DNA from: an uncultured Flavobacteriales bacterium
GTDB lineage: Bacteria > Bacteroidota > Bacteroidia > Flavobacteriales_F > PHOS-HE28
Length of the DNA: 64,000 bases
NCBI GenBank assembly: GCA_937872175.1
Contig: CALMPI010000037.1
Coordinates: forward strand, 62,001 to 126,000
Reading direction: 5' to 3'
How positions within the stretch are numbered: the first letter of the stretch is position 1; each line of letters starts with the position of its first letter. Made by a program: the position numbers and the translations under genes. The notes beneath the pieces were generated by a model, which made no database searches, was not told the origin of the DNA, and saw only the letters and a list, made by a program, of their open reading frames with translations. Positions 2,519-59,703 of this stretch are shown here, in pieces.

Positions 2519-2591
2519 GAGGCTCCGGCAGGACGGGTTCTTCGCGAAAGCGGAAACCACCCCGTACCCCTCCTTGATGGGAGCAGCGAGC

Positions 2592-2616: not shown

Positions 2617-2703
2617 TGGCATGTGCTCTTGTGCGCATGTGCCCGAACGCCAAGGGCCGCCCCGCGATCGCGAAGCGGCCCCTGACCCATGTTGTGCACA
2701 AGC

Positions 2704-4943: not shown

Positions 4944-4953
4944 CGGACCAGTG

Positions 4954-5979
4954 CTATTCGATTAACACGAACTTGAACGACCTCCGCTTTCCTCTGTTCA
5001 CTCCATGCCCTATGTACATACCTCTGGCCCAATTACCCACCTCGATCCGATGAAGATCACCAGTGCCTGTCCCTTGCCAAAGCACCCTGCCCGCCGCATC
5101 ATGGATCATGACACCAGAACCCCTGTCGATCCCCTGCAGCGCGATATGATCCCGTGCAGGGTTCGGGAACAGCCTTAGCCCTTCGCTCTGAAGCGCGTCG
5201 ATGCCGACGGCCATGGGGCATCCTTCGGGATCAGTGGACACGCACACGTTGTCGATCAGCACATAGCCGATCTGCGCACCAGTTGTATCAGACACGATCT
5301 GTGCGGTATCTGTATTCACATTGTCGAAGTGGTTGCCCATCATCAGGTAGTGGTAGGCACTGTCCGCTACGAAACTGCCGCTCACCAAGGTCCAGCCCAC
5401 TGTATCGGTGATCATCACGGAAGAGAATACATGTGCGTCGTTGCCCGGCGCAGGGTATGGGTCGTTCAGCTCCCATTGGCGCGGTTGCGTGGTGAACAGC
5501 ATACCGATACCATTGGTGTACAACCATGCTGGGGGGTTCATGGGGTACCCTCCCCACCCCACACCTGCGTAGAAGCTCGCGAAGTACTGCTGCCCGATCA
5601 CCAGTGGTGATAGCAGCTCTACCATGAAATACTCGCGGACGTTCGGTGGAACAGCCCTGTAGGTGGCGACCCCAGCATAGCACTCTCCCTCCTGTGGGTA
5701 TTGGAAAGCCAAAAAGCTGAAGGGAGAACTGTTGAAGGTACCATAGGGCAGGCAACCCAGAAAGTGATCGGGTGTTCCAGCTCCGGAGAACCAACCCAAA
5801 GGGCCCGTCTCCGGATAGTACACATCGTTCACCACGCGGCAGGTGTCGTACTCCTCAAAGGACGGGTTGGGCACCAGGTTCTGCGCTTCGCAGCGCGGAG
5901 GAGCAATGAACAACAAGCAGCCCAACAGCAAGCTGGCGCCTCTGCCGGGCCACCTGTCGTTCATCGCGTGAGGAAGCAT
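4954..5979 (-). CDS. Secreted T9SS type A protein of unknown function
   Basis: This protein (341 residues from the chosen ATG) begins with a signal peptide ending CEA before QNLVPNPSFEEYDTC. That motif opens many Bacteroidota secreted proteins with a galactose-binding-like fold. The middle (about 60-260) is rich in Trp/Tyr/Gly and likely beta. The C-terminus (LRLFPNPARDHIALQG ... ARGMYIGHGVNRGKR) is a type A T9SS sorting domain. ATG at 5964 is an equally good start; ATG at 6084 would place 35 non-hydrophobic residues before the signal. It probably shares a transcript with the S74 gene. Confidence 0.7.
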   Translation of the reverse strand: MLPHAMNDRWPGRGASLLLGCLLFIAPPRCEAQNLVPNPSFEEYDTCRVVNDVYYPETGPLGWFSGAGTPDHFLGCLPYGTFNSSPFSFLAFQYPQEGECYAGVATYRAVPPNVREYFMVELLSPLVIGQQYFASFYAGVGWGGYPMNPPAWLYTNGIGMLFTTQPRQWELNDPYPAPGNDAHVFSSVMITDTVGWTLVSGSFVADSAYHYLMMGNHFDNVNTDTAQIVSDTTGAQIGYVLIDNVCVSTDPEGCPMAVGIDALQSEGLRLFPNPARDHIALQGIDRGSGVMIHDAAGRVLWQGTGTGDLHRIEVGNWARGMYIGHGVNRGKRRSFKFVLIE

Positions 5980-6353
5980 CGTTCGTCTCTGGGTCTTGGC
6001 CCAGAGCAGGTCTTGTTCGTTGTCGGTGAAGCGCCGGGCGCCACGCTGTGGTGGCCTTGTTCCCCGGTGCATCGGTCCGGTCACCGCTGTGAGAGGTACG
6101 CCCCAGCGTTGCGGCCCCGCTGGCGTACCCCGCCGTATCCCTGGCGGGTGGGCCCATTGTCAAGACCGCCGATCTGCGGCCGGTGCTGCCTACATGGCCA
6201 TGGGGCACCTTACCTTCGCGCTGCTCTGTTTCGTTTACCTATTCACCTGGGTTGAGTGGGACATGAGCGACCAAAGCCCTCGGTGTTCGCCCGCCGGGGG
6301 CTTCTTCATTGCGGCAGTGGCGGGGCCACATCCCTTCATTGATCCATGTTTGG

Positions 6354-6480
6354 GCGGCCTCCAGCCTCCAGCCTCCAGCCACAGGCCTCCAGCCGCCAGC
6401 CTCCTGCCACAGGCCTCCAGCCACCAGCCTCCAGCTTCCAGCCTCCAGCCGCAGGCCGCCAGCTTCCGGCCACAAGCGGC
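6354..6480. repeat. CCTCCAGCC minisatellite
   Basis: About 125 bp made of 9-14-bp variants of CCTCCAGCC interspersed with CACAGG, GCCGC and CACCAG steps. One strand is strongly pyrimidine-rich. Copies are imperfect and unit length varies, unlike a CRISPR array. Confidence 0.8.
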
Positions 6481-6737
6481 CAATCCCACCCATGCAGCCC
6501 GCCATGCGGTCTGCGATGATGCGGGTTGGAAGGAGAGGATGCATGGCGGAACCAATGTAATTCAAGTTCGACGCTTTGGTGCATGCTGTTGAAAATTTGC
6601 GGTTTTCGACGGTGCTCGATTTACTAGCAGAAGGGCCATGATCAGCAAGGTCCACGTTCACCTTTTCCCGCAGACCTCTGTGCTCGAGGTTCGCTGAATT
6701 TCGGAATGATCCGCAGGAGAGCGTGCGTGGATCAGGG

Positions 6738-6775
6738 GGATCGCCACGCATCCCTTCGGGCTGCTCGCGATGACG
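6738..6775 (+). repeat. Degenerate 38-bp element, copy A
   Basis: Begins GGATCGCCACGCATCCC and ends CTCGCGATGACG. It aligns with 6928-6967 and 6977-7013 through the pattern GATCrCC..C ... GGG ... CGCGAkGACG. Confidence 0.5.
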
Positions 6776-6787
6776 GCGAGGGAAGGG

Positions 6788-6812
6788 GATCGCTGCTCAC
6801 GAGGGGGCTTGA
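6788..6812 (+). repeat. Dispersed intergenic repeat, copy 2
   Basis: Shares about 24 of 25 bases with 2592-2616. Both sit in non-coding DNA on the same strand. Confidence 0.45.
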
Positions 6813-6927
6813 CCCGTGAACAACCCTCCTGGCGTGGAACGTTGCGCAGCTTCCCAACTCGTCTTCGCGAGACGGGCTTTGGCGCCGAAGCGATCTCCCT
6901 GGAAGTGCGCCGATCATTGGCCCGGGA

Positions 6928-6967
6928 GATCGCCACGGCGGCCCTGCGGGACCGGATCGCGAGGACG
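6928..6967 (+). repeat. Degenerate 40-bp element, copy C
   Basis: Begins GATCGCCACGGCGGCCCTG and ends GATCGCGAGGACG. It is the most diverged member of the local family. Confidence 0.4.
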
Positions 6968-6976
6968 GTCAGGGAT

Positions 6977-7013
6977 GGATCACCCACATCCCATCGGGAT
7001 GCTCGCGAGGACG
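6977..7013 (+). repeat. Degenerate 37-bp element, copy B
   Basis: Begins GGATCACCCACATCCC and ends GCTCGCGAGGACG. It is close to copy A, and further similarity continues past its end (GGGGAAGGAGACCGCCACGG). Confidence 0.5.
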
Positions 7014-7235
7014 TTGGGGAAGGAGACCGCCACGGCGCTCCACACACCACCTTCATCAGCGCATCGCAGAGGCGGACTGGTGTCGATCATCGCGCTTGGC
7101 AGCATCCTCCTTCACGATTCCACTTGACGCGTCCGGAGGCTGTCTGGCCAGGCCCGGGATCCCGGGCCGAACGGTTAACACTCTTTAACTGCGGGTCGTC
7201 CCTGATGCCCAAGGGCTCCGGTGAATTTTGCGGCA

Positions 7236-7243
7236 CACCTTTG
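7236..7243 (+). promoter_or_regulatory. -7 promoter box of the moxR-bat operon (CACCTTTG)
   Basis: CACCTTTG followed by CGGCCC lies 20 nt before the ATG at 7264. It is the only such box near the start of the eight-gene operon. Confidence 0.45.
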
Positions 7244-7263
7244 CGGCCCACGCCCACGACCCC

Positions 7264-8289
7264 ATGGATACCCTGAGCACCTCCCCCGCGCCGGTGACGG
7301 CCGAGAGCATCCGCCAGTTGAACGACCGCATCCAGCATGCCAGCGCCTTCGTGGACCTGGTGGAGCGCGAACTGGAGAAGGTGATCGTGGGCCAGAAGGA
7401 CATGGTGCAGAAGCTGCTGGTGGCGCTGCTTGCCGACGGCCACATCCTGCTGGAAGGCGTGCCCGGCCTGGCGAAGACGCTGGCCATCAAATCCCTCGCC
7501 CGCACCATCGACGTGGGCTTCAGCCGCATCCAGTTCACCCCGGACCTGCTGCCGGCCGACCTCATCGGCACCCTGATCTACAGCCAGAAGAACGAGGAGT
7601 TCAGCGTGAAGAAGGGGCCGATCTTCAGCAACTTCATCCTGGCCGACGAGATCAACCGCGCGCCGGCCAAGGTGCAGAGCGCCCTGCTGGAGGCGATGCA
7701 GGAAAGGCAGGTCACCATCGGCCAGCAGACCTTCACACTGCCGGAGCCCTTCCTGGTGCTGGCCACCATGAACCCGATCGAACAGGAAGGCACCTACCCC
7801 CTGCCGGAGGCGCAGACCGACCGCTTCATGCTGAAGGTGGTGCTGGACTATCCGCACAAGGAGGAGGAGAAGCTGATCATCCGCCAGAACGTGCGGCCCG
7901 GCGCGCAGCCCGAACTGCACAAGGTGGTGCGGCCCGACGAGATCCTCACCGCCCGCCAGCTGGTGCGCGAGGTGTACATGGACGAGAAGATCGAGCAGTA
8001 CATCGTGGACATCGTGCACGCCACGCGCAAGCCCGACCAGCACAAGCTGAGCGACCTGGTGAGCCTGATCGGCTTCGGTGCCAGCCCGCGCGCCAGCATC
8101 TACATGGCCCTCGCCGCCAAGGCCCTGGCCTTCACCAAGCGCCGCGGCTATGTGATCCCCGAGGACGTGCGCGCCGTGTGCCCCGATGTGCTGCGCCATC
8201 GCGTGGGGCTCACCTACGAGGCCGAGGCCGAGAACATCACGGTCGGCGAGCTCATCGACCGCGTGCTGAACACCGTGGAGGTCCCGTGA
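7264..8289 (+). CDS. moxR: MoxR family AAA+ ATPase
   Basis: A 341-residue ATPase with a MoxR-type Walker A variant (LLEGVPGLAKTLAIKSLA), Walker B (FILADEINRAPAKVQSALLEAM) and sensor/Arg-finger segments (LATMNPIEQEGTYPLPEAQTDRFM). MoxR proteins act as chaperone-like ATPases on von Willebrand factor A (VWA) proteins encoded beside them, here DUF58, BatA and BatB. The start at 7264 (MDTLSTS) is preferred to the in-frame ATG at 7228, which overlaps the promoter box. It opens the operon, and DUF58 follows after 68 nt containing a GC-rich hairpin. Confidence 0.92.
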   Translation: MDTLSTSPAPVTAESIRQLNDRIQHASAFVDLVERELEKVIVGQKDMVQKLLVALLADGHILLEGVPGLAKTLAIKSLARTIDVGFSRIQFTPDLLPADLIGTLIYSQKNEEFSVKKGPIFSNFILADEINRAPAKVQSALLEAMQERQVTIGQQTFTLPEPFLVLATMNPIEQEGTYPLPEAQTDRFMLKVVLDYPHKEEEKLIIRQNVRPGAQPELHKVVRPDEILTARQLVREVYMDEKIEQYIVDIVHATRKPDQHKLSDLVSLIGFGASPRASIYMALAAKALAFTKRRGYVIPEDVRAVCPDVLRHRVGLTYEAEAENITVGELIDRVLNTVEVP

Positions 8290-42333: not shown

Positions 42334-42768
42334 ATGTTCTCAAAGGCCTGTGAATACGGCATCCGCGCCGCAGTATGCATCGCAGGATGCGGCCGGGATG
42401 GCGAGCGGTTGAGCCTCAAGGCCATCGCAGAACACACTGACAGTCCCGAGGCCTTCACGGCCAAGATCCTTCAGAAGCTTGTGCATGCCGGGCTGGTTCG
42501 GTCCGTCAAAGGACCTGGTGGCGGCTTCAGCATCTCGGAACCCGATGCACGCCGCATCCGATTGAGCCAGATCGTCGCCTGCATCGACGGTGATGCGATC
42601 TACCGGGGTTGCGCCCTCGGGCTTCCCCAGTGCAACGCCCGGAAACCCTGTCCGCTGCACGACAGCTTCCTGCAGGTGCGCGAGGATCTGCGGCTCATGC
42701 TGGAGCGCACCACCCTGCATGACCTGGTGATCGGTCTGCGGGAGGGACGCACCGTGCTCAAGCGCTGA
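42334..42768 (+). CDS. Rrf2 family transcriptional regulator (NsrR-like)
   Basis: 144 residues: an N-terminal winged helix (SKACEYGIRAAVCIA ... LSLKAIAEHTDSPEAFTAKILQKLVHAGLVRSVKGPGGGFSI) and a C-terminal three-Cys cluster site CALGLPQCNARKPCPLHD, as in Fe-S sensing NsrR/IscR proteins. NsrR loses its cluster on NO exposure and derepresses NO-detoxification genes. Its neighbours (norCB convergent 3' of it, RIC and nos genes beyond) and the two NsrR-like palindromes upstream make an NO-sensor role likely and suggest autoregulation. Identity as NsrR rather than another Rrf2 member is inference. Confidence 0.82.
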   Translation: MFSKACEYGIRAAVCIAGCGRDGERLSLKAIAEHTDSPEAFTAKILQKLVHAGLVRSVKGPGGGFSISEPDARRIRLSQIVACIDGDAIYRGCALGLPQCNARKPCPLHDSFLQVREDLRLMLERTTLHDLVIGLREGRTVLKR

Positions 42769-44086
42769 CGCGCGGATCGGTGGGTGCCTCCTGCCCGGCG
42801 ATGACCACCTGCCGCATCAGGGGGATCACCACCAACATCAGCCCACCGGCAACAGCCGCACCGGCCAGCACGAACACGACGAGCACTGACATCACCGGCC
42901 GCATGACCTCCGCGTGGTCCGTCATGCCCAGTCCCACGGAACGCCAGCCCTTCAGCAGACCGGCCACGATCAGCGCCGACCACAGGACGTGGAGGGCGAT
43001 GACCGCGATGCGCAGCCCGGCCCTGGGCCAGCGTCCGGCACGAGCACCTTCGAATCCCGACCAATAGGCGATGCAGCCCAGCAGGATGAACGTATTGATG
43101 CCGATCGTGGCGCCCATGGCGTGGGCCACAGTGATGTGCGTGCCGTGGGTGTACCGGTTGATCGCCGGCACCGACATCAGCAGCGCCAGCATCAGGTTCA
43201 GCAGCACCCAGCGCTCGGCGGCGCGCAGACAGCGCTGACTGAAGGTCGTACCGGTGGGACCGGCTTGCGACCTCCGCAGGCCGCGCAGGATGTCGAACAG
43301 GATCAGCCACTCGGCCATGCTGATGGCATAGGCGGCATGCCGCACCCAACCGGCCGTGGGCGCATTGTAAAGGTGGTGCCCCCAGTTGAACATCAGGTTG
43401 GCCAGGCCCAGGAACCAGAACGCGTGCGCCTTCCCGCTGCGCGCCAGGGCCTCGTTGCCCGAGACGCGCACGGCGAGATAGAGCGAGGTGCCGTAGATGA
43501 GCTGGTTCCAGGCCCCGACCATGCTGCCATTGCTCTTCCATTGCACGATGAGGTCACGCAGGTAGCTGGTGCGGACCGAAGGCAGGAGCCACAGGTTCTG
43601 CTCGATGAAGGTGAACAGAAAGAAGACCGCTCCGGTGGTCCACATCCAGAGGTGGATCGGAGCCCCATGGCCATGTCCCCGCAGCGCCCGGAGATGATCC
43701 ACCAGCACCAGCAGCCACGCCAGTCCGATAGGCAGGGCGAGCCACGGTGGGAACTCCCAGTACTCGCGACCACCGAACCTCCCGAGCACATAGGAAAGGA
43801 GGGCTGAGAGCAGTGCTCCGGCCCAGAGGATCAGGAACCCGCACAGGAGCCTGCGATCGGGCGTCGCGCCGACCACCTCCGAGCGTGCGATGAGCATCAC
43901 GGCCAGCGCCCCCGTGACGATCCAGAACAGGGCCGTGGTGGTGTGCAGCGGCCTCAACCGTACGAACGGCAGCACGTCGGCGAGCTCGGGCACGACGAAC
44001 GCCAAGCCCGCCAGCACGCCCAGCAACAATGCGGCGATCAACAGGCCGAGCGCGATGGCCGTGATGCAGCGGACGGGCCCGTTCAT
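42758..44086 (-). CDS. norB: Divergent NorB-like nitric oxide reductase / heme-copper subunit I
   Basis: 442 residues, about 12 membrane helices. Low-spin heme ligand His48 (RPLHTTTALFW), the two FeB ligands GHH at 236-238, and INRYTHGTH / VAHAMGATIG at 310-330 identify the NorB fold. Three key positions differ. The FeB-ligand His of helix VI is Asn186 and the catalytic Glu is Val190 (SNGSMVGAW; spacing of 51 residues to GHH is kept). The HxH pair of helix X reads H322-A-M324, so the second low-spin heme ligand would be Met. Its ATG overlaps the norC stop by 4 nt. It is either a divergent NO reductase or another NO-handling enzyme. Confidence 0.72.
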   Translation of the reverse strand: MNGPVRCITAIALGLLIAALLLGVLAGLAFVVPELADVLPFVRLRPLHTTTALFWIVTGALAVMLIARSEVVGATPDRRLLCGFLILWAGALLSALLSYVLGRFGGREYWEFPPWLALPIGLAWLLVLVDHLRALRGHGHGAPIHLWMWTTGAVFFLFTFIEQNLWLLPSVRTSYLRDLIVQWKSNGSMVGAWNQLIYGTSLYLAVRVSGNEALARSGKAHAFWFLGLANLMFNWGHHLYNAPTAGWVRHAAYAISMAEWLILFDILRGLRRSQAGPTGTTFSQRCLRAAERWVLLNLMLALLMSVPAINRYTHGTHITVAHAMGATIGINTFILLGCIAYWSGFEGARAGRWPRAGLRIAVIALHVLWSALIVAGLLKGWRSVGLGMTDHAEVMRPVMSVLVVFVLAGAAVAGGLMLVVIPLMRQVVIAGQEAPTDPRVSA

Positions 44087-44520
44087 GGTCGATCGATGGG
44101 GATCACGTACGTCCCGGTCCAATGCACCGCCTCCGCCTGCACCTGCGAAGTACCATGACGGTCCACCCAGCGCAGATAGGCCATGAGGTCGGTGATGGCA
44201 CTGTCCTGGAGCGCATGCGCGGGCATGCGGCCGGTGCCGTACCGGATGAAGGTCCTCAACCGGGCGTCATCGCGAACGCGAACGATGTTGGTGAGGTCCG
44301 GTCCCATGTACCCTCCAAGACCGAACAATTGATGGCAGGCCTGGCAGTTGTGCGCCTGCCAAAGACCTCGTCCACGCATCGCCGCCTGATCCGGAACGCT
44401 TCGGCGTCCATCGAAGAGCCCGGCGTAGATCGCCACCGTGTTCGCCACGAAGGCGAGCACCAACAGCACGAGCACCCCGGAGCGCCAGTGCGGAGCGGGT
44501 GCTTCGGATCTGCCCTGCAT
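44083..44520 (-). CDS. norC: NorC-like membrane-anchored cytochrome c
   Basis: 145 residues. One N-terminal membrane anchor ([21 protein letters not shown]) is followed by a single c-type heme domain, HNCQACHQLFGLGGYMGPDLTNI, with a distal Met in GRMPAH. That heme motif closely follows NorC of NO reductases. It passes electrons to the NorB-like subunit. The start at 44520 has TGCCTTCG 8 nt upstream; an ATG at 44571 would add 17 residues. Confidence 0.82.
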   Translation of the reverse strand: MQGRSEAPAPHWRSGVLVLLVLAFVANTVAIYAGLFDGRRSVPDQAAMRGRGLWQAHNCQACHQLFGLGGYMGPDLTNIVRVRDDARLRTFIRYGTGRMPAHALQDSAITDLMAYLRWVDRHGTSQVQAEAVHWTGTYVIPIDRP

Positions 44521-44620: not shown

Positions 44621-46273
44621 ATGCTGCGTCCGTCGCTCCTGCTTTCCACCGCGCTCCCGATCGTCCTCTTCGCCCAAGTGATGAACCCCATGGCCGTTCC
44701 ACCCGCCTTGGAACTGGACACCTTCGATCTGGACGTGGATGAGCATGTGGTGAACTTCTATCCCGGGGTCAACACCAGCACCTACGGCGCCAGCGCACCC
44801 TATCTGGGCCCCACGCTGATCCTGCACCAAGGCGACTCCGCACGCATCCGAGTTCACAACCACCTCAGCCAGGTGACCAGCATGCACTGGCATGGCATGC
44901 GTGTGCCCGGCTGGGCCGATGGGGGGCCGCCCCGCGAGGTCCTTCCGGGCGAGACCTGGTCCGTGGAATTCCCGGTCCGTCATCCGGCAGCCACGTTCTG
45001 GTACCACCCGCATCCGGACGGGCTCACCGCCGAGCAGGCCAACCTTGGCGTGGCCGGGACCATCGTGGTGCGGGACACCGTCGAAGCGGCCCTGGACCTA
45101 CCACGCAACTACGGAGTGGATGACCTACCGGTGGTGATCCAGGACAGGCGGTTCGCCCCCAACGGCAACTTCGTCTTTGCCGCTTACGGTGACTCGGTGT
45201 TGGTGAACGGAACCCCGCACGCGTATGTGGACTGCCCGGCGCAGGTGGTGCGGCTGCGGCTGCTGAACGGCAGCAATGCCCGGGTCTACCAGCTCGGGTT
45301 CGATGACGGGCGCACGTTCCATGTGATCGCCGGTGACGGCGGCTTGCTGAGCGCACCGGTGCCGACGGACCGCCTACCGTTGAGCAACGGTGAGCGGGCC
45401 GAAGTGCTGCTGGACCTCACCGGCATGGAGGGCGACAGTCTGCACCTGATGAGCTTCGGCAGCGAACTACCCGTCACCGTACCGGGTGCCAACAACCCGA
45501 TCTGGGAATCCAGTGTGCTGAACGGCGTGGACTTCCAAGTGCTTCGGATCCGCGTGGGCCCGCCCACACCGGGCGCGGTGACCGCGATCCCCGGTACGCT
45601 GGTGACGTTGTCACCGCCTGACGAGGCCGATGCGGTGCGCACACGAACAAAGATCCTCGCGGGCATGGGCATGGTGGGCATGGGCATGTTCACCATCAAC
45701 GGGCTCATGTTCGATCCGGCGGTGGTGAACGACACCATGCTCCTTGGCACCGCCGAGGTCTGGGAGATCGAGAACATCAGCAACATGGCGCATCCCATGC
45801 ACCTCCACGGTGGGTCCTTTTTCATCCTGGACCGTGACGGGGCCCCTCCTGCGGCTTGGGAGGCAGGCCCGAAGGACGTGGTGCTGGTGGACGCCGGGGC
45901 CAGTGTACGCATCATCATGCGGTTCGAGGACCTGAGCGACGGTTGGCCGTACATGTACCACTGCCACAACCTGATGCACGAGGACAACATGATGATGCTG
46001 CAGTACATCGTGGTGGACACCCCTACGGGAATGCCCGCCATGGATGCGGCCGAAGCCTCGCTCTTTCCGGTGCCGAGCACGGGCCAGGTCAACTACGCAT
46101 GCACTTTCGTGCCCGCGGACCTGCGCATCACCGACGGTACCGGCCGCATCGTGCACCAGGAGGGGCCGGTGCTCATGCATGGCAGCTTGCACCTCTCTCT
46201 GCCGAGGGGTAGCTACATCGCCACCTTCAGCTCGCACCACGCACGGACCTCCGCCAAACTGATCATCCAATGA
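44621..46273 (+). CDS. Multicopper oxidase with T9SS-like C-terminal domain
   Basis: 550 residues: a signal peptide (LLLSTALPIVLFA) and three cupredoxin domains. All four copper motifs are present: HWHG (89-92), YHPHPDG, HPMHLHG and the C-terminal HCHNLMHEDNMMM. It belongs to the CueO/SufI laccase-like group, not to two-domain NirK. A Met-rich insertion (GMGMVGMGM) may bind Cu(I). The last 75 residues (ASLFPVPSTGQVNYACTF ... LSLPRGSYIATFSSHHARTS) look like a T9SS type A sorting domain. It overlaps the RIC gene by 4 nt. A role in copper or NO-related oxidation at the surface is inferred. Confidence 0.85.
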   Translation: MLRPSLLLSTALPIVLFAQVMNPMAVPPALELDTFDLDVDEHVVNFYPGVNTSTYGASAPYLGPTLILHQGDSARIRVHNHLSQVTSMHWHGMRVPGWADGGPPREVLPGETWSVEFPVRHPAATFWYHPHPDGLTAEQANLGVAGTIVVRDTVEAALDLPRNYGVDDLPVVIQDRRFAPNGNFVFAAYGDSVLVNGTPHAYVDCPAQVVRLRLLNGSNARVYQLGFDDGRTFHVIAGDGGLLSAPVPTDRLPLSNGERAEVLLDLTGMEGDSLHLMSFGSELPVTVPGANNPIWESSVLNGVDFQVLRIRVGPPTPGAVTAIPGTLVTLSPPDEADAVRTRTKILAGMGMVGMGMFTINGLMFDPAVVNDTMLLGTAEVWEIENISNMAHPMHLHGGSFFILDRDGAPPAAWEAGPKDVVLVDAGASVRIIMRFEDLSDGWPYMYHCHNLMHEDNMMMLQYIVVDTPTGMPAMDAAEASLFPVPSTGQVNYACTFVPADLRITDGTGRIVHQEGPVLMHGSLHLSLPRGSYIATFSSHHARTSAKLIIQ

Positions 46274-47040
46274 GCATCCCCGCCACACCGGCCTCCATGA
46301 CCCAACGGACCGTAGGCTCCATCGTGGCCGATGACTACCGCACCGCCGCCGTCTTCAACGCCCATGGCATCGACTTCTGCTGCAAGGGCGGCCGCACCAT
46401 TGCCGAGGTGTGCCGGGCCAAGGCCATCGAACCGGACACCTTGGAGGCCGAGATCCGCCAGGCCATTGAGCGCGATGGCGGCACGGGGGACGATGTGAGG
46501 CAATGGCCCCTGAGCCGCTTGATCGGGCACATCGAGCGCGTGCATCACCGCTATGTGGAGGCCCGCTCCACCACCCTGAAGCAGTTCCTCAACAAGCTCT
46601 GCAGCGTGCATGGCGATCGCCACCCGGAGCTCCTTGCGATCCGCGAGGAGTTCGAGACCTGCACCCATGCCATGGCCACGCACATGAAGAAGGAGGAACT
46701 GGTCCTCTTCCCCTTCATCAACCAACTGGAGAGGTCCCTGCGGCACGACCTTACCGCTCCGACCCCACATTTCGGCACCGTGGACAACCCGATCGCGATG
46801 ATGGAGCGGGAGCATGACGCCGAGGGAGAGCGCTTCCGTCGCATCGCCATACTGAGCCGGGACTACACCAGCCCGCCCGATGGCTGCACCACCTATGCGA
46901 CGGCCTATGCCATGCTGCGCGAGTTCGAAGAGGACCTGCACCGCCACATCCACCTGGAGAACAACATCCTGTTCCCCAAGGCGAAGGCGTTGGAGAAGGA
47001 ACTGCGCCGCGCCCAAGGGTGCGATGCGGCAGCCTGTTGA
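46270..47040 (+). CDS. ric: RIC/ScdA iron-sulfur cluster repair di-iron protein
   Basis: 256 residues: an N-terminal ScdA_N domain (VGSIVADDYRTAAVFNAHGIDFCCKGG, with the CC pair) and a C-terminal hemerythrin-like HHE domain with its His/Glu ligands (LIGHIERVHHRYVE, HMKKEELVLFPF, EREHDAEGERFR, HRHIHLENNILFPKA). It repairs Fe-S clusters damaged by NO or oxidants and is a classic member of NsrR regulons. The ATG overlaps the multicopper oxidase stop. Confidence 0.93.
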   Translation: MSIPATPASMTQRTVGSIVADDYRTAAVFNAHGIDFCCKGGRTIAEVCRAKAIEPDTLEAEIRQAIERDGGTGDDVRQWPLSRLIGHIERVHHRYVEARSTTLKQFLNKLCSVHGDRHPELLAIREEFETCTHAMATHMKKEELVLFPFINQLERSLRHDLTAPTPHFGTVDNPIAMMEREHDAEGERFRRIAILSRDYTSPPDGCTTYATAYAMLREFEEDLHRHIHLENNILFPKAKALEKELRRAQGCDAAAC

Positions 47041-51407: not shown

Positions 51408-51971
51408 TCAACCCGGCAGCAGCACCTTGTCGATCACGTGGATGATGCCATTGCTCGTGGGCACGCTGGCCACGACCGTGGCATCGTTGATCATGAGCTT
51501 GCCGTCCTTGTTGGAGATCGTGGCGTTCTTGAGGTTCACCATGTTCAGCACCTTGCCGTCGGTGAGCTGCTCGGGTTTGAGGACGCCCACCCACACATGG
51601 TACTCGAGGATGTCCTGAAGGTCGGCCTTCTTCTCGGGCTTCAACAGGCCCTCGACCGTTCCGGCGGGGAGCGCTGCGAAGGCGGCGTTCACCGGAGCGA
51701 AGACGGTGAACGGACCGGCGTTGCTCAGCACGTCCACATACTCGGCGGCCTTCACCGCCGCTACAAGGGTGCTGTGGTCCTTGGAACCGACCGCAACGGC
51801 CACGATGTTCTTCTGGGACTGTTCATCCACCACGGTGGACTGCCCTCCGCCCGGGGCTTCCGTTGTGCTCGTGGCGGGGCTGCCTGGTTCGGCGGTCGGT
51901 CCGCCACAGGCGGTGATCAATGACGTGGCCATGAAGGCCATCATGGTGCTGGACGATAGGGAGCGGGTCAT
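51408..51971 (-). CDS. Fasciclin (FAS1) domain lipoprotein
   Basis: 187 residues: a lipoprotein signal (MAFMATSLITACGG), a Ser/Thr/Gly/Pro linker (about 25-50) and one complete FAS1 domain (about 55-187) with the H1/H2 boxes FTVFAPVNAAFAALPAGTV and NGIIHVIDKVLLP. FAS1 genes often flank nos clusters in Bacteroidota, and a role in NosZ maturation or adhesion has been suggested only by context. It lies 100 nt downstream of nosY and has its own palindrome-bearing promoter. Confidence 0.9.
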   Translation of the reverse strand: MTRSLSSSTMMAFMATSLITACGGPTAEPGSPATSTTEAPGGGQSTVVDEQSQKNIVAVAVGSKDHSTLVAAVKAAEYVDVLSNAGPFTVFAPVNAAFAALPAGTVEGLLKPEKKADLQDILEYHVWVGVLKPEQLTDGKVLNMVNLKNATISNKDGKLMINDATVVASVPTSNGIIHVIDKVLLPG

Positions 51972-51989
51972 GGTCCGGGTTTTGGTGTC

Positions 51990-52003
51990 GGACAAACTTG
52001 TCC
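51990..52003. promoter_or_regulatory. Shared palindrome at the fasciclin promoter
   Basis: GGACAAACTTGTCC (6 of 7 pairs). On the minus strand its GTTTG overlaps the expected -7 box, 18 nt before the ATG at 51971. Confidence 0.5.
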
Positions 52004-52071
52004 TTTTTGGTGCGCGTGGGAACTGATGGAAGTCCCGGATCGGTCTGACCCTCGTCATCCCGCCGGGCGGA

Positions 52072-52845
52072 TCACAGGTCCTTGCGGCGGAAGACGCGGA
52101 AGGCCGCGATCGTAGGCCAGGCGATCCAGAGCATCATGAGCGAGAGGGCCAGGCCGATGCCGGGCCCGGAGCCCAGAAGGTCCTTGTAGACCGCACCGCT
52201 GTAGCCCAGCATGGCGGCCAGGTCCACCTGGATGGTGACGGCGATGCGCGCCAGGTCGATGGGGTTCAAGGCCGCCACGGGAAGAACGAACGGCTCGATG
52301 GGGCGGTCGCTGAAGGCGAAGAGCAGGGCCATGAGCAGGGCGTCGTACACCAGCACCAGGCACGCCCAGGTGGCCAGGGCCACGCCCACCCCGCGGGCCT
52401 TGTCACGGTTCACCAGGGCCACGAGCGTGCCCAGCGCCATGAACGCCCAGGCGAGCAGCACGGTGGACGCCAGCAGCACCGTGGAGGTGGCCCCGGCCGC
52501 GTGTGCGGTGAGCGGCAGGCCGAGCCCGAAGAGCAAGGCCACCAGGAAGGCCAGGCCGAGGGCCGCCATGCGCCCGCCCAGGATCGCCCCGCGCCCGATG
52601 GGTTGCACGGCCAGCAATTGCGTGAACTCCTGCGTGGCGTAGGTATGGACCACCGTGAACACCAGGCTCACCAGCGGGATCAGGGCCAGCATCACCTGCA
52701 CCAGGCTCAGCAACGCCTTCACGGGATCGGCCTCCACCAGGAACAGCCCCTCGGCCACCACGAAGAGCAGGGCCGCGAAGGCCAGCACGGAGCGGTTGCG
52801 CGCCAGGTCCACCAAGGTGTAGTAGAGCACTTTCCCCATGGTCAC
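52072..52845 (-). CDS. nosY: NosY ABC transporter permease
   Basis: 257 residues with six membrane helices (for example VLAFAALLFVVAEGLFLVEAD, AAGATSTVLLASTVLLAWAFMALG). FTQLLAVQPIGRGAILGGR is the ABC-2 coupling-helix motif. It forms the membrane part of the NosDFY complex that serves CuZ assembly of N2O reductase. Its start overlaps the nosF stop by 4 nt. Confidence 0.88.
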   Translation of the reverse strand: MTMGKVLYYTLVDLARNRSVLAFAALLFVVAEGLFLVEADPVKALLSLVQVMLALIPLVSLVFTVVHTYATQEFTQLLAVQPIGRGAILGGRMAALGLAFLVALLFGLGLPLTAHAAGATSTVLLASTVLLAWAFMALGTLVALVNRDKARGVGVALATWACLVLVYDALLMALLFAFSDRPIEPFVLPVAALNPIDLARIAVTIQVDLAAMLGYSGAVYKDLLGSGPGIGLALSLMMLWIAWPTIAAFRVFRRKDL

Positions 52846-53558
52846 GATGTTGGAGCCAGCATGCGGGGGAGCGCTGCCGCCAGACGGTCGGCGCCGGTGC
52901 GGGTCAGGACCTCCCGCAGGGGCAGCAGAAAGCGAAGCGACCCGTCCTGCAGGTAGGCGATGCGGTCGGCCAGGGCCTCCACCTCCTCCAGCAGGTGCGA
53001 GGTGATGAGCACGGTGCCCCCGCGTTCCCTCACCTTGGAGGCCTGCCTCAGCACCGTGCGCGCGCTCAGGGGATCGAGCCCTGCCGTGGGCTCATCCATC
53101 ACCAGGATGTGCGGTGAGGAGCGGAAGGCGAGCACCGCGCTCACCTTCTGCATGGTGCCACCGGAAAGGGTGCCCAACCGCTTGTCGAGCTGGGGCGCCA
53201 GACCGAGGTCCTCCACGAGGCCGTCATCCGTGTCGCCGGAGGCCAGGCCGCGCACGTCGCGCATCATGTCGAGCAGCTGGCCGATGGTGAGCGACGGCGG
53301 GAACTGGGAGATCTGCGGCATGTAGCCGATGGACCGGCGGTAGCTGGGATCCGGGCCGATGACCGTCCCGTTCACGCGGATGGTACCGGTGGTGGGCCGC
53401 ACAAGGCCCAGCAAGCACTTGATCAGGGTGGTCTTGCCCGAACCGTTCGGACCGATCACCATCACCACCTCTCCTGCACGGAACGATGCATCCACCTCCC
53501 TCAGCGCCCAGAGCGTGCGGTAGCGCTTTCCCACACCGCTGAAGATGACGTTATCCAT
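52842..53558 (-). CDS. nosF: NosF ABC transporter ATPase
   Basis: 238 residues with Walker A GPNGSGKTTLIK, signature LSGGTMQKVSAVLA, Walker B ILVMDEPTAGLDP and switch His in TSHLLEEVE. It energises NosDFY for copper-sulfur centre assembly in NosZ. Its ATG overlaps the nosD stop by 8 nt. Confidence 0.92.
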   Translation of the reverse strand: MDNVIFSGVGKRYRTLWALREVDASFRAGEVVMVIGPNGSGKTTLIKCLLGLVRPTTGTIRVNGTVIGPDPSYRRSIGYMPQISQFPPSLTIGQLLDMMRDVRGLASGDTDDGLVEDLGLAPQLDKRLGTLSGGTMQKVSAVLAFRSSPHILVMDEPTAGLDPLSARTVLRQASKVRERGGTVLITSHLLEEVEALADRIAYLQDGSLRFLLPLREVLTRTGADRLAAALPRMLAPTS

Positions 53559-54777
53559 GCGGGGGGCGCATCAGGGGCCTGTCGTCCTTCAGGGCGGCGG
53601 GCGAAAGGGAGGGGATCACGCGCTCGGCCCGGTCCAGCAGGGTGACGAACAGGCTGCGGGAGAAGACGATGGCGTACGGGACGCGCTCCACGAGCAGGGC
53701 GAAGAAACCGACCGGCCGGTAGGGCACATCGCCATGGCCGTCGCGGTCCAGGTCATAGCCCAGGTGGCGGTCCCAGTAGTTGGCCACGATGGTGTTCAGC
53801 ATCAGGTCGCCGTTGGTGCTCATGTCAAAGGTGTTCCCCGAGAACGCGTTGCCGCTGAAGGAACAACCCGTGGCGTTGGCGAACAGCCGCAGCGCCCATC
53901 CGTTGGCCCGGAAGGTGTTGTCTTCCGCCTTGATGCGGTTGCAGCCGTCCACCATCAGGCCCGTGGTGTTGTCCACGAACGTGTTCCCCGTGATCTCGCC
54001 ATCGTTGATCTCCTTCAGCAGCAGCCCGTAGGCACTGCCCCCCCGGTTGTGCATGAAGCGGTTCCGCCGCATGCCGATGTGGTGGCTGAACATCACCGCC
54101 ACGCCCGCACCATTGTCCACGAACACGTTCCGCTCGTACATGTCGCGATGGCTGAACATGAAATGCAGGCCGTAGCGCACATTGCCGTGCGTGAGGTTGT
54201 CCTCGATGCGTGAGTCGGTGACGAACTCGAAGTAGATGCCGTCGCGGTGATCACGGACCAGGTTGCGGCGGATGGTCGCCTTGGAGCACTTCCACAGGTG
54301 GATGCCGTTCCCCATCCGGTCCTTGTCGTCGGGCGCGCCTTCGATCACGTTGCCCTCCACCAAGGCGCCATCCACACCACTGAGGTAGATCGCGAAGAAG
54401 CAGCTGATGAACCGGTTGGCCCGGATCACGGGCCTGGCACCGCCGTTCACCTTGATGGCCGCATTATCATACAAGCTGCTGATCCGGGTGCCCGTAAAGG
54501 TGAGCCCCTGCAACGTGACATCATCCGCGGTGATGATCAGCACCTCCCCTTCCCCGCCTCCGTCGATCACGGCACCCGGCAGGCCCAGCAGGCAGATCGG
54601 GCGGTCGATGGAGATGGGACCTTCCCGCACCGGCCCGTCCACCACGATGGTGTCACCGACGGCCGTACGGGCCATGAGCGCCGCCAGCGTGCCATCACCG
54701 GCACGATGCAGATGGACGCGGGCGAGCGCCGGTAGCGACCACAGGACCAGCAGACCGAGGATGCACCGTGGCGCCAT
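53551..54777 (-). CDS. nosD: NosD periplasmic beta-helix protein
   Basis: 408 residues: a signal peptide (CILGLLVLWSLPALA), then a right-handed beta-helix built of coils such as IRANRFISCFFAIYLSGVDGALVEGNVIEG and GIYFEFVTDSRIEDNLTHGN. The C-terminal His/Met-rich segments (HFMFSHRDMYERN, VMFSHHIGMRRNRFMHN) suit copper contact. It works with NosFY to deliver sulfur or copper to apo-NosZ. It starts 3 nt after nosL. Confidence 0.92.
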   Translation of the reverse strand: MAPRCILGLLVLWSLPALARVHLHRAGDGTLAALMARTAVGDTIVVDGPVREGPISIDRPICLLGLPGAVIDGGGEGEVLIITADDVTLQGLTFTGTRISSLYDNAAIKVNGGARPVIRANRFISCFFAIYLSGVDGALVEGNVIEGAPDDKDRMGNGIHLWKCSKATIRRNLVRDHRDGIYFEFVTDSRIEDNLTHGNVRYGLHFMFSHRDMYERNVFVDNGAGVAVMFSHHIGMRRNRFMHNRGGSAYGLLLKEINDGEITGNTFVDNTTGLMVDGCNRIKAEDNTFRANGWALRLFANATGCSFSGNAFSGNTFDMSTNGDLMLNTIVANYWDRHLGYDLDRDGHGDVPYRPVGFFALLVERVPYAIVFSRSLFVTLLDRAERVIPSLSPAALKDDRPLMRPPHG

Positions 54778-54780
54778 GGG

Positions 54781-55221
54781 CTATTCGGCCAGACGTTGCC
54801 GTGCGGTGGACCAGTCCCAGGCCTCGCCACCGGAGGCCGCGATGGCCGAATCACGCTCATCGGCGGTGGCGAAGGCGGCCACATCCCCGCGCATCGGGCT
54901 GCGAAAGGCGTCGCCCCGGGCGTAGTGCGCCGCGGTGGCGTCGATCAGCCGGCCCGGGCGCACGATGTCGGTCACATACCACGCCTTGACCTGGGTCTCT
55001 GCGATCGTACCTCCGGCCACATGCGGCACCATGCACTCCGGTCCATCAAAACTGTACTGTCGCCCGCCCTTGGTGATCAACGCCGCGGCAAAGCGCGCGT
55101 CCACCACGTTCATGCGACAGTGGGCACATTCCACGCGCCCCAGTTCGATCGTGGGCGTCTCCGGGGCGCAGGCCGGGACCAGGACCGGAAGCAGGAGCAG
55201 CAGGTACCGGCGTGCGATCAT
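54781..55221 (-). CDS. nosL: NosL copper chaperone lipoprotein
   Basis: 146 residues with a lipoprotein signal (LLLLLPVLVPAC). The family copper site CAHCRMNV (CxxCxM) sits at about 31-37, followed by FAAALITKGGRQYSFDGPECMV, the second NosL motif. It supplies Cu(I) to NosZ. It overlaps the upstream membrane-protein gene by 4 nt (ATGA). Confidence 0.92.
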   Translation of the reverse strand: MIARRYLLLLLPVLVPACAPETPTIELGRVECAHCRMNVVDARFAAALITKGGRQYSFDGPECMVPHVAGGTIAETQVKAWYVTDIVRPGRLIDATAAHYARGDAFRSPMRGDVAAFATADERDSAIAASGGEAWDWSTARQRLAE

Positions 55222-55805
55222 GCGCGCGGTGCGGCGCGATGGGAGCGCCGCCATTCGAGGGTGAAGATGATCGCCGCGATCGTGCTTGAACAGAAGAGCG
55301 CCCAGCCGCCCACATCAGGTGTGCTCCAGGCGTCGAAGTTGAGCAGCTGCTTGTGACCGATGAGCGGTGGCTGATAGGCCATCCCCTCCACCTTGATGGC
55401 CGCGCGGGGGTCGAGGTCATGTCCGTATTTGTAGCCCCATGCGTACATGTCCCACACCGCCCAGATGATGAAGGCGGCGATGGCGAAAAGCCAGCTGAGC
55501 AGCACAGCGCGGCGGCCGACAAGGGCGGTGACCAGGCCCCAGGCGATGAGCAGGTAGAACGCGTACCTCATGATGCCGAACTCCGGGAACATCTCATCCT
55601 TGATGTGCGCCATGCCGATGTAGTGGTTCAGGCCGTTGATCTTGTCGATGTCGCCGGCGAAGCGGTCGTGGAAGATCTGCAGAAAGAGCCCCTCCGGGTA
55701 TTGCGGCGCCATCAGGTCGATGCGCCAGATGGGCATCACCAGGTTGATGCCAAGGGCGAGGGCGGCCAGGGCAAGGAGCAGGCGTGAAACGGGATGGAGG
55801 CGCAT
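55218..55805 (-). CDS. Nos-cluster membrane protein of unknown function
   Basis: 195 residues with about five hydrophobic segments. LVMPIWRIDLMAPQYPEGLFLQIFHDRFAGDIDKINGLNHYIGMAHI is the hallmark of a membrane protein that follows nosZ in clade II nos operons of Bacteroidota. The His-rich periplasmic loop (NHYIGMAHI) could bind metal or heme. The biochemical role is not established. Confidence 0.75.
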   Translation of the reverse strand: MRLHPVSRLLLALAALALGINLVMPIWRIDLMAPQYPEGLFLQIFHDRFAGDIDKINGLNHYIGMAHIKDEMFPEFGIMRYAFYLLIAWGLVTALVGRRAVLLSWLFAIAAFIIWAVWDMYAWGYKYGHDLDPRAAIKVEGMAYQPPLIGHKQLLNFDAWSTPDVGGWALFCSSTIAAIIFTLEWRRSHRAAPRA

Positions 55806-55890
55806 GGTTCGGCTGGAAATGGACCGCGCCACCCTTCCAGGCACCGCAGAGGACGGTGATGGAAGGGTGGCGCTGGTCATGGCGTTCGTA

Positions 55891-57885
55891 TCAGACCCCC
55901 GCGTCCACCGACACGGTCTCGCCCTTCAGCGGCACCGTGCTGTTGGCCGGCGACACCCGGACGTAGCCCTGCATCTCCTGGTGGAGGGCCGAGCAGAAAT
56001 CCGTGCAGTACATGGGCCACACGCCCACGCGCGTCGGAACCCACTTCAGGGTCTGGGTCTCCCCGGGCATGATGAGCAGTTCGGCATTGGCCGCACCCTT
56101 GATGGCGAAGCCGTGCGGCACGTCCCAGTCCTGTTCCAGGTTGGTCACGTGGAAGTAGACCTCGTCCCCGAGCTTGATGCCCTCGATGTTGTCGGGTGCG
56201 AAGTGCGAACGGATGCTCGTCATCCACACATGGACCTCGTTGCCTTTGCGTTCCACCCTCGATTCCTTCTCCCCCTTGGCGACATACGGGTGCTGGTTCT
56301 CCTCGATCTTGAAGAACTTCACTTCGCGGGGCTTCACCAGATCGGCCGGAATGGCCTGGGCGTAGTGGGGCTCGCCGGTCGTGGGGAAGTCCAGCAGGAG
56401 CTCCATCTTGTCCCCGTCGATGCTGTACAGCTGGGCGCTCTGGGTGAGCTCGGGGCCCGTGGGCAGGTAGCGGTCCTTGGTGATCTTGTTGTAGGCGATC
56501 ACATACTTGCCCCACGGTTGCTTGCTGTCGCCGCCCGGCACACAGAGGTGGCCGATGCTGTAGTAGGTGGGCACACGGTCCACCACCTCAAGCTTCTCCA
56601 CGTTCCACTTCACGATCTCGCTGCTGACGAAGAAGCTGGTGTAGGCATTGCCGTTCGCATCGAACTCGGTGTGGAGGGGCCCCAGGCCGGGCTTCTTCAC
56701 CTCCCCGTGCAGCACGCTCTCGTACTTCAACACGGGGATGCCGGCGAAATCGCCCTCCACCTCGTTCGCTGCGATGGCCTTCTGCATCTTCTCGAAACTG
56801 AACACCGGGATGAGCGCGGCCAGCTTGCCGCTGCCCACGATGTACTTGCCGGTCGGATCCACATCGCAGCCATGCGGGCTCTTGGGACAGGGCATGAAAT
56901 AAAGCAGCCCGGGGTGCTCCTTGGGATCGAGCTGCAGCACATCATCGATCACCGTGGTCTCACTGCTGTGGGTCTTGTCGTTCCACCAGTTGCTGTAGTG
57001 CTTGCCGGCCACACGCTTGCCCTTGCCCTCCTTGGCCAGCTGCTCGGCCATCTTCCAGTTCACGGCCATGATGAAGTCCTTGTCGCGCTGGCTGGCGTTC
57101 ACCTCCAACAGGCTGTAAGCCTGCTCGGTGTTGTAGCAGCTGAAGAAGAACCACCCCTCGCTGGGTCCCTTTCCCGCGTGGCTCAGGTCGAAGTCGACCG
57201 CCGGGGTCACGATCTGGAAGGCGATGCTCATCCTGCCGGTCTCCGGCTCCGGGTGGATGAAGCTCACGGTGCCTTTGAACGTCTCCTTGTAGGAACTGAT
57301 GGGCACGTCACGCTGGGCCTCTTCGCCCATGGGCACGCTGAACCGGGTGCCGGCCACCACGTACTCGCTGTTCCCGGTGGTGAACGGTGAGCTGTGGTTG
57401 CCCGCGCTGTTCGGGATCTCGATGATGCTGTGCGTCCTGAACGTGCCGAGATCGATCAAGGCGATGCGTGGTGTGTTGTTGCCATTGATGAAGCACCATT
57501 TGCCGTCCGGCACACCGTTGGTCTGGCTCATCTCCGGATGGTGGCTGTCATCCCACGGGATGAACCCATGGCTCGTCATCAGCATGCCCTTGCTCTCCTC
57601 GCTGTATCCGTAACCGCTCTCCGGATCCACGCTGAACACCGGCACTTCACGCAGGAGACGTCCGCTGGGCAGGCCGTACACGGCAAGCTGGCCGCTGAAG
57701 CCGCCGCTGACCAGGTTGTAGAACTCATCGTGGGTGCCGGGCTTCACGTAGACCTTGGAGGCCGCATCACCTGTCACCACGGTCTGCGTGGTGGTGGGAC
57801 GGCAGCCGGGCAGGGAATTGGCCAGGACGAACGCCAGCCCGGCCAGGGTCAGCGTTCCTGTGGTGAACAACAAGGGGCGTTTCAT
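55891..57885 (-). CDS. nosZ: Nitrous-oxide reductase NosZ, clade II
   Basis: 664 residues with a Sec lipoprotein-like signal (LTLAGLAFVLANSLPGC) and no twin-arginine, the mark of clade II. The N-terminal seven-bladed propeller carries CuZ ligands (DDSHHPEMSQ, GNHSSPF, DFDLSHAG, KSPHGCDVDPTG, LHTEFDANG, GHLCVPGG). The C-terminal cupredoxin holds CuA: YCTDFCSALHQEMQGY at about 620-640. It reduces N2O to N2. It lies 26 nt after the cytochrome c gene in the same operon. Confidence 0.96.
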   Translation of the reverse strand: MKRPLLFTTGTLTLAGLAFVLANSLPGCRPTTTQTVVTGDAASKVYVKPGTHDEFYNLVSGGFSGQLAVYGLPSGRLLREVPVFSVDPESGYGYSEESKGMLMTSHGFIPWDDSHHPEMSQTNGVPDGKWCFINGNNTPRIALIDLGTFRTHSIIEIPNSAGNHSSPFTTGNSEYVVAGTRFSVPMGEEAQRDVPISSYKETFKGTVSFIHPEPETGRMSIAFQIVTPAVDFDLSHAGKGPSEGWFFFSCYNTEQAYSLLEVNASQRDKDFIMAVNWKMAEQLAKEGKGKRVAGKHYSNWWNDKTHSSETTVIDDVLQLDPKEHPGLLYFMPCPKSPHGCDVDPTGKYIVGSGKLAALIPVFSFEKMQKAIAANEVEGDFAGIPVLKYESVLHGEVKKPGLGPLHTEFDANGNAYTSFFVSSEIVKWNVEKLEVVDRVPTYYSIGHLCVPGGDSKQPWGKYVIAYNKITKDRYLPTGPELTQSAQLYSIDGDKMELLLDFPTTGEPHYAQAIPADLVKPREVKFFKIEENQHPYVAKGEKESRVERKGNEVHVWMTSIRSHFAPDNIEGIKLGDEVYFHVTNLEQDWDVPHGFAIKGAANAELLIMPGETQTLKWVPTRVGVWPMYCTDFCSALHQEMQGYVRVSPANSTVPLKGETVSVDAGV

Positions 57886-57911
57886 GGGAACTGGTTGTGG
57901 TGGATGGTCGA

Positions 57912-58382
57912 TCAAAGGGTGCGCATGAACTCAAGGACCTGCCGGGCCTCCTCCATGCTGAGGTTCTGGTTGGGCATGCGCACCAGGCACTGCTCCAGTT
58001 GCCGCTGCGCCTCCGGGTCCTCGGCCAACATGGCGTCGGTGTTCACGATCATGTTCATGATCCACTCCGGCTTGCGCCGCGTGGTGACGCCCTTCCAACC
58101 CGGGCCCACCACCCGGTTCTCGCCCATGCTATGGCAGGCCTGACATTTGACATCGTAGGTGGTCTTGCCTTTCTCGGCCATGCCGGCGTCGATGTCGCCC
58201 AGCGTCACATCGGCTTCCGTCAGCAGCTTGGCCTTGGAGCCTTCCCCGCCTCCTGCGCTCTCCTTCTCGAGCGTGGGTGCCCCCGGCGGACCGGCGCTCG
58301 ATGCATCACTACCGCCGCCACAGGCGGCCATCAGGCTCAGGGCCATCATGGCGATGGCGATCCTCTTCGTGCTCGTGCTCAT
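57912..58382 (-). CDS. Nos-cluster lipoprotein cytochrome c
   Basis: 156 residues with a lipoprotein signal (IAIAMMALSLMAACGG), a disordered Gly/Ser/Pro linker (25-55) and a single-heme domain with KCQACHSMG near residue 80 and distal Met in MPNQNLS. It is the probable electron donor to NosZ and the first gene of the nos operon. ATG 58382 is preferred over an upstream TTG. Confidence 0.88.
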   Translation of the reverse strand: MSTSTKRIAIAMMALSLMAACGGGSDASSAGPPGAPTLEKESAGGGEGSKAKLLTEADVTLGDIDAGMAEKGKTTYDVKCQACHSMGENRVVGPGWKGVTTRRKPEWIMNMIVNTDAMLAEDPEAQRQLEQCLVRMPNQNLSMEEARQVLEFMRTL

Positions 58383-58491: not shown

Positions 58492-59703
58492 ATGGACCAC
58501 ACCCGACACTGGTACCGCATCGCCCTGGCCGACCTGCTGGTGGCCGCCCTGATCGGCTGTGTGCTGCGCGCCATCTATCTGGTGGAGATCCCCTTCGTGC
58601 GCTTCAAGCCGCTGCTTCACGCCCACTCGCACGTGGCGCTCCTGGGCTGGGTCTTCATCGGCCTGATGGTCTTCCTGCTGGATGATGCTCCGGATGCGCG
58701 GACGTTGCGCAGGCGGCGTGTGCTCCTGTGGTGCGTGCAGGCCATGGTGCTCGGCATGCTGTTCAGCTTCCCGGTGCAGGGCTACGGACCGGTCTCCATC
58801 ACGGCCTCCGCGCTGCACATGATCATGAGCTACCTGATGGTCCGGGAGGCCTGGACGGCCACGCGCGGCTGGTCCGCGGCGGGGAGCCGAATGCTGGCGC
58901 GGCTCGCGCTGGCCGGCTTCGTGCTGTCCACCATCGGGGTCTGGGCCATCGCCCCCCTGCTCGCGGCCGGGCTGTTCGGCACGGAGGCCTATTACTGGAG
59001 CATCCAGTTCTTCCTGCACTTCCAGTTCAACGGGTGGGCCTGGTTCGCCGCGCTGGCGCTATGGTCGCGATGGGCCGAGCAGCAGGGATCGCCCACCCCG
59101 CTCGATCCGTTCACCGTGAGGCTGTGGGTGGTGTCCACCGTGCTGAGCTTCGCCCTGGCCATCGCTTGGAGCGAACGGCACTGGACCATCATCGCGGTCA
59201 ACTCCGCGGCCGTGCTGTTGCAACTGTGGGCCGGCTGGCGCACCGGCAGTGCCGTCCGCCGTGCCCAGGCGCTGCTGATGGACCGCGCTCCGCTGTGGGC
59301 CTGGCGTTGCGTCACCTACGCGCTCGTCGTCATGGGCATCAAGGTGTTGATGCAGGCCGTGGTGGCCTTCCCACCGGTGGCGATCATGGCCTTCACCATC
59401 CGCAACTACGTCATCGGCTTCATCCACCTCAACATGCTCGGGGCCATCACCCTGATGCTCTTTGCCATGGCGCTGCTGCGGGGCTGGTTCACCTCCACGG
59501 CCGTGCCGGTGCGCATCGGGCTGTCGCTCTTCACCTCGGGGCTCGTGCTCACCGAGGCGTTGCTCTTCCTGCAGGGCACGCTGTTCTGGGCGGGGCTTGG
59601 CATGCTGCCTGGATACCATGCGACACTGCTCGGCTTCAGCCTGCTGCTTCCGGCGGGCATCGCGGTGTTGTGGGCGCACCACCCCGCGCGCGCCCGCACC
59701 TGA
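58492..59703 (+). CDS. Heme-copper-like / NnrS-like multi-spanning membrane protein
   Basis: 403 residues with about 11 membrane helices. His residues cluster in membrane motifs: [13 protein letters not shown] (43-47), [11 protein letters not shown], and [15 protein letters not shown]. This is reminiscent of heme-binding subunit I-like or NnrS-type proteins encoded beside nor/nos clusters. The canonical CuB/FeB set is absent, so it is not a full terminal oxidase. It is divergent from the nos operon and shares its promoter region. A heme or NO-related role is inferred from context. Confidence 0.65.

Follow-up and report, generated by a model that had tools for sequence, protein, structure and literature searches.

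A conserved NorCB-like lineage of Bacteroidota with altered heme and FeB ligands, probably a distinct branch of the heme-copper/NO reductase superfamily

The gene pair norC'-norB', found in a stretch of 64,000 nucleotides from an uncultured Flavobacteriales bacterium (the window), is best read as a member of a distinct, previously undescribed lineage in the C-type branch of the heme-copper/NO reductase superfamily, a reading to which we give a probability of roughly 0.6. At about the same probability, NorC'B' is an NO-induced enzyme that is fed by cytochrome c and has a remodelled or FeB-free active site. The ligand pattern of NorB' is far beyond chance, and the loss of ligands is a trait of the lineage, not a quirk of a single gene. 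The lineage is widespread in Bacteroidota, from which its distinct members nearly all come. A literature search returned no description of the NorC'B' clade; the NOR survey of Murali et al. 2024, which lay outside that search, may mention it.

The norB' gene, which encodes a NorB-like catalytic subunit, occupies positions 42,758–44,086 on the minus strand, with its ATG at 44,086 and its stop ending at 42,758, whereas the plus-strand translation of the same positions is interrupted by stops and holds no frame. The frame and the residues H48, N186, V190, H237-H238, H322 and M324 named in the first-pass annotation are real, and the spacing of 51 residues from N186 to the GHH pair is as it had been counted (N186 to H237). 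The product of 442 aa has 12 predicted TM helices and matches Pfam COX1 (PF00115, 2.8e-20); a search of NCBIfam with the NorB' protein gave no matching model. A PDB search with the single NorB' sequence as the query found nothing. When a profile of 19 NorB' relatives was used, cNOR was the top match (4xyd_A, 1.6e-22; 3o0r_B, 2.5e-18), and cbb3 CcoN followed at 1e-13 or weaker. The AF2 model of NorB' (pLDDT 81, pTM 0.86) also has 12 TM helices and is weak at residues 237–241 and 315–322, which are the active-site turns. Its TM score is 0.82 to NorB (3o0r_B) and 0.84 to cbb3 CcoN. By fold and sequence homology, NorB' is a member of the heme-copper superfamily. Its motifs are RPLHTTT with H48, QWKSNGSMVGAWN with N186, V190 and N194, FNWGHH with H237 and H238, and the helix X motif YTHGTHITVAHAMG, which holds H314, H322 and M324.

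The first-pass annotation had stated that the FeB His, the FeB Glu and the second low-spin heme His are missing, and the alignments bear this out, as neither of them shows a His or Glu there. In the profile alignment to P. aeruginosa NorB, N186 (codon 43,529–43,531; all codons are on the minus strand) stands at the place of the helix VI FeB ligand H207, V190 (43,517–43,519) replaces the FeB ligand E211, and H322-x-M324 corresponds to H347-x-H349. In a 62-sequence alignment, the cNOR helix VI His falls on G187, not on N186; the register of helix VI is uncertain by one residue because the two alignments differ, and neither residue 186 nor residue 187 is ever His. Both alignments match H48 (43,943–43,945) with the low-spin heme b ligand His60 of cNOR. 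The 62-row alignment also identifies H237-H238 (43,373–43,378) as the kept FeB His pair, H322 (43,121–43,123) as the kept proximal ligand of heme b3, and M324 (43,115–43,117) as the replacement of the second low-spin heme b ligand. No other His or Glu is placed at the FeB site by sequence alignment. A fourth change, absent from the first-pass annotation, is that of cNOR E215 to invariant N194.

The family counts agree with each of these assignments. Among 111 distinct members of the lineage, position 186 is N in 61, Y in 37, M in 9, G in 2 and L in 1, and position 190 is V in 102, T in 6, S in 1 and I in 1. H237 and H238 are kept in 110/110, and H48 and H322 each in 109/109. The low-spin heme b of cNOR is bis-His (His60/His349); in the lineage, the corresponding pair is His48/Met324, with Met in 109 of 109 members. 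E162 (43,601–43,603), which lies in the sequence FIEQN, K184, G187 and N194 are invariant (110/110), and E162, K184 and N194 are not found at these positions in the cNOR, qNOR, Nod or cbb3 rows of the 62-row alignment. E259, the equivalent of cNOR E280, is also invariant, as are N310 and H314, which lie near a heme b3 propionate. Of the six signature histidines of heme-copper proteins (PMC3413370), the lineage keeps four, and of the cNOR FeB set of three His and one Glu, it keeps two His and no Glu. The retained and replaced ligands are invariant in members that share 33–99% pairwise identity, which indicates that they are selected and not decayed. A degenerate paralogue was dropped as an explanation for the same reason.

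The partner gene norC' (44,083–44,520, minus strand) encodes a NorC-like, membrane-anchored cytochrome c of 145 aa with a CQACH heme c motif and a GRMP Met ligand, and the PDB search matched its product to NorC of P. aeruginosa (3o0r_C, 7.3e-10). The stop of norC' and the start of norB' overlap as ATGA, and therefore the co-transcription proposed earlier is likely. NorC' adjoins norB' in 79 of 80 related loci; these are the best 80 of at least 539 relatives, to which all locus counts in this report refer. CxxCH and a downstream Met-Pro are present in 100/100 NorC' sequences. In cNOR, a calcium site (NorB E135, NorC Tyr73) links NorC with the two b hemes. Its Glu is kept as E108 of NorB' (109/109) and its Tyr as Tyr71 of NorC' (93/100), and NorC Glu70 is replaced by invariant Leu68, the loop that contains Tyr71 and Leu68 having been paired by eye. 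The Glu70-to-Gln variant of P. denitrificans NorC has no activity. Judging from the sequences, electron entry looks intact, and the distal metal site and the low-spin heme look altered. A short palindrome scan around norC' turned up a single exact repeat of 6 bases and nothing that resembles a regulator site.

The scan of GTDB species representatives yielded at least 539 NorB' relatives, and all but two of the best 80 carry Bacteroidota-type record titles. One exception is titled 'uncultured bacterium'; the other is a MAG under the name Azovibrio, which has the gene order of locus L030 and is probably misbinned. In two sister genomes, the NorB' copies are 84% and 77% identical and the gene order is conserved. 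A plasmid search for the NorB' family found no members. In a tree of 39 lineage, 4 cNOR, 6 qNOR, 5 Nod, 5 C-type oxidase and 3 A/B-type outgroup rows, the lineage forms one clade (100/100, stem 1.96) and is sister to cNOR, qNOR and Nod together with a support of 99/93, a placement for which the long stems call for caution. It lies outside every ordinary NOR clade sampled. The earlier suggestion of a divergent NO reductase clade thus holds as a statement of ancestry. Canonical cNORs, which keep every ligand (HLWVEGVW, GHHYY, MHGH), also occur in Bacteroidota, and therefore a sharp line separates the two types inside a single phylum.

With cNOR, the lineage shares the two subunits NorC and NorB, the 12-TM fold, the heme c motif, the calcium-site Glu and Tyr, the GHH pair, the proximal heme b3 His and the equivalents of E280, N335 and H339. 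However, it is without the helix VI FeB His and the FeB Glu, has Asn for E215, Met for His349 and Leu for NorC E70, is missing NorQD, and forms a separate clade. The qNORs belong to the same branch of the superfamily, but they keep HLWVE, HH and HxH, and are about 750 aa long with a fused N-terminal domain, which the 442-aa protein of the lineage does not have. The cbb3 subunit CcoN has the same fold, opens helix VI with VQW and carries RPLH in helix II, but keeps all six histidines. The B-family NORs (bNOR, eNOR, sNOR, gNOR and nNOR) likewise show variation at the NOR active site; however, they are relatives of the B-family oxidases with a cupredoxin-type subunit II, whereas the partner in the lineage is a cytochrome c, and the two B-type rows in the tree, the only ones included, fall far outside the lineage. 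Identity with nNOR was dropped, since published descriptions relate nNOR to the B-family oxidases.

In the window, an Rrf2-family regulator gene, NsrR/IscR-like by domain matches (42,334–42,768, plus strand), is convergent with norB'. A multicopper oxidase gene (44,621–46,273, plus strand), CueO/FtsP-like and not NirK by domain matches, is divergent from norC' and is common to the closest relatives only. It adjoins the gene for the RIC/YtfE/ScdA di-iron iron-sulfur repair protein of NO stress (46,270–47,040, plus strand; TIGR03652, 8.9e-67). Past RIC follow ribonucleotide reductase, fasciclin and then the nos cluster, in which homology identifies a clade II NosZ, the N2O reductase (55,891–57,915, minus strand), with nosL, nosD, nosF and nosY downstream (52,072–55,254, minus strand; nosF and nosY by sequence reading). 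The assembly of the window, which is 99.99% complete, encodes aa3, cbb3 and NorB' as its only heme-copper proteins, and hence no Nod, and the genome gave no NirK above the cut-off and no NirS.

Three other genes of this region were noted. A fasciclin-domain, lipoprotein-like gene (51,408–52,058, minus strand) separates nosY from the ribonucleotide reductase gene, and fasciclin genes occur in 14 of the best 80 loci. A conserved protein of 220 aa without a Pfam match is encoded between nosZ and nosL (55,218–55,880, minus strand). A polytopic membrane protein of about 400 residues (58,492–59,703, plus strand) has an invariant HAHSH and further conserved His, and matches nothing in Pfam or PDB. 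A HAHSH membrane protein of this size is found in 29 of the best 80 loci, often between Rrf2 and RIC (for example, L030–L062). Matches to the COX1 profile of 19–28 bits (24–41 with neighbours), from ORFs of 418–439 aa in several genomes, may belong to the same HAHSH family.

Across the best 80 loci, Rrf2 genes are present in 41, RIC in 24 and hemerythrin in 19. NorQ, which was looked for at the loci, is present in 2 of the 80, and 24 of the 25 lineage-bearing genomes lack NorD; the one genome that has it carries a canonical cNOR operon. In loci L097 and L102 (about 400–7,300), norC-norB-ric-norQ-norD-norC'-norB' form one same-strand run, in which the canonical cNOR operon comes first. Of 120 sampled genomes of Weeksellaceae, the family to which Chryseobacterium lacus belongs, 17 contain the lineage and 4 contain canonical cNOR, and all 4 also have the lineage (Fisher p 3e-4), which indicates that it is not simply a replacement of cNOR. 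On the Thermus thermophilus plasmid pAK1b (L189), a canonical norCB has Rrf2 and a DUF542 gene as neighbours; its regulatory setting resembles that of the lineage. A second C-type oxidase-like family of about 600 aa, with MHxGVGxW, GTHHF and AHSHxTMYG, was also seen (L146, L147, L173 and others). In the window's own genus, it occurs in several genomes that have nirK and nosZ and in which no other NOR was found, and also in genomes without nirK.

In the mechanism proposed for NorC'B', a periplasmic cytochrome c would donate electrons to the heme c of NorC', from which they would move to a high-potential low-spin heme b ligated by His48 and Met324, and finally to heme b3 on His322, where NO would bind. 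With His and Met as its ligands, heme b should have a raised potential. The distal site beside heme b3 would hold either no FeB or a metal on H237, H238 and a non-canonical third ligand. NorC'B' is probably made in response to NO, as its Rrf2 and RIC neighbours suggest, and by consuming NO or a product of NO it would protect NosZ downstream or supply it with substrate. The NO-linked neighbours make NO the probable substrate, and NO to N2O is predicted as the likeliest reaction, which is plausible. Because the His3-Glu FeB is missing, the canonical mechanism of cNOR cannot apply unchanged. Several points stand against this reading. The loss of FeB or of the FeB Glu is expected to abolish cNOR activity, the lineage accompanies canonical cNOR in Weeksellaceae, and in the window's own genus, nirK is found in 1 of 14 genomes with the lineage but in 7 of 16 without it (p 0.04). 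The minor NO reductase activity reported for a Cloacibacterium strain (see below) would also count against it if the 'cNor' of that strain is of the lineage. The lineage as the partner for NirK in this genus was dropped because nirK is rarer in the genomes with the gene.

An ordinary cNOR-type reductase, which converts 2 NO to N2O at an FeB rebuilt on H237 and H238 with E162, a K184-assisted water or N194, is the foremost rival, although we hold it only tentatively. The HH pair, E259, N310 and H314 are all invariant, and FeB coordination is reported to vary among NOR subfamilies (PMC10256718). FeB loading of cNOR needs NorQD, and NorCB without FeB is stable, fully hemylated and inactive; however, qNOR provides a precedent for FeB insertion without NorQD (PMC9976466). 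On the other hand, the helix VI ligands are all gone, and the AF2 model places E162 towards the periplasmic end of helix V (144–165), while its cNOR counterpart in the alignment is a Phe that is not a ligand. Moreover, the simultaneous change of the low-spin heme His to Met is not explained by a simple ligand swap. Somewhat less likely again is the FeB-free form of the enzyme, in which a single heme b3, fed by the His/Met heme b and cytochrome c, would either carry out NO chemistry different from that of cNOR or achieve the cNOR reaction by a mononuclear route.

The loss of FeB ligands with retention of the heme b3 ligand, together with the absence of NorQD, would also suit an NO-binding heme protein that is weakly catalytic or not catalytic at all, such as the NO sensor suggested in the first-pass annotation, or a buffer or scavenger; it would report on NO or keep it from the respiratory chain. 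Its place beside a complete canonical cNOR operon in L097 and L102 points the same way. An N2O-respiring Cloacibacterium strain with a 'cNor' that may be of the lineage is reported to have only minor NO reductase activity (PMC11168931), and this too would fit. However, the dedicated NorC', with its heme c ligands kept in all sequences and the calcium bridge retained, argues for electron throughput, and no signalling domain is fused to NorB'. We consider such a protein unlikely.

It is improbable that NorC'B' keeps a cNOR scaffold but works as a terminal oxidase or reductase on a different substrate (low-tension O2, hydroxylamine or nitrite). The model is as close to CcoN as to NorB; however, helix VI offers CuB no His, the canonical HxH is absent, the neighbours are NO-stress genes and not oxidase assembly genes, and the tree groups the lineage with the NORs.

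The first-pass annotation had also raised an NO dismutase-like enzyme with a cytochrome partner. In Nod as described by Ettwig et al., one coordinating His is changed to Asn and a nearby Glu to Gln (PMC3413370), and the Nod-type proteins of the sister genomes have GHH changed to SHN and E280 to Q, and keep the helix VI His/Glu (HMWVEAFFE) and HGH. The earlier statement that Nod carries a His-to-Asn change in the FeB region and keeps HxH was correct, but the Asn sits at a different His from that of the lineage. The lineage shows the complementary pattern, in which GHH and E280 are kept and the helix VI His/Glu and HxH are lost, and the resemblance is therefore superficial. In addition, Nod is of qNOR-like length, is without NorC, and forms its own clade within the qNOR group; the lineage is neither inside Nod nor sister to it. 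Nod-type genes were seen in the same high-GC genus and in other Bacteroidota (L137, L138, L139, L140, L153, L154 and L180), usually close to norC'B' and on the other strand, and the signature of SHN with E to Q was read in L137, L139, L140, L154 and L180. Eight loci have a Nod-type gene placed in this way, of which one is a fragment, and in the window's own genus, Nod is present in 5 of 14 genomes with the lineage and in 0 of 16 without it (p 0.014). In spite of this association, NO dismutation (2 NO to N2 + O2) by NorC'B' is very improbable, given the different substitutions, the reductant-delivering NorC' and the Nod-free genome of the window.

The heme-copper signature is one of six conserved histidines, and here a large, deeply branching and conserved lineage keeps four of them and appears to have a Met-ligated low-spin heme. 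The lineage is also a natural test of whether a NOR needs FeB. Bacteroidota are major N2O sinks, and surveys list 'cnorB' in members such as Cloacibacterium (PMC11879220); such calls feed predictions of N2O sources and sinks. If the lineage reduces NO poorly despite its NO reductase label, these N2O predictions would change.
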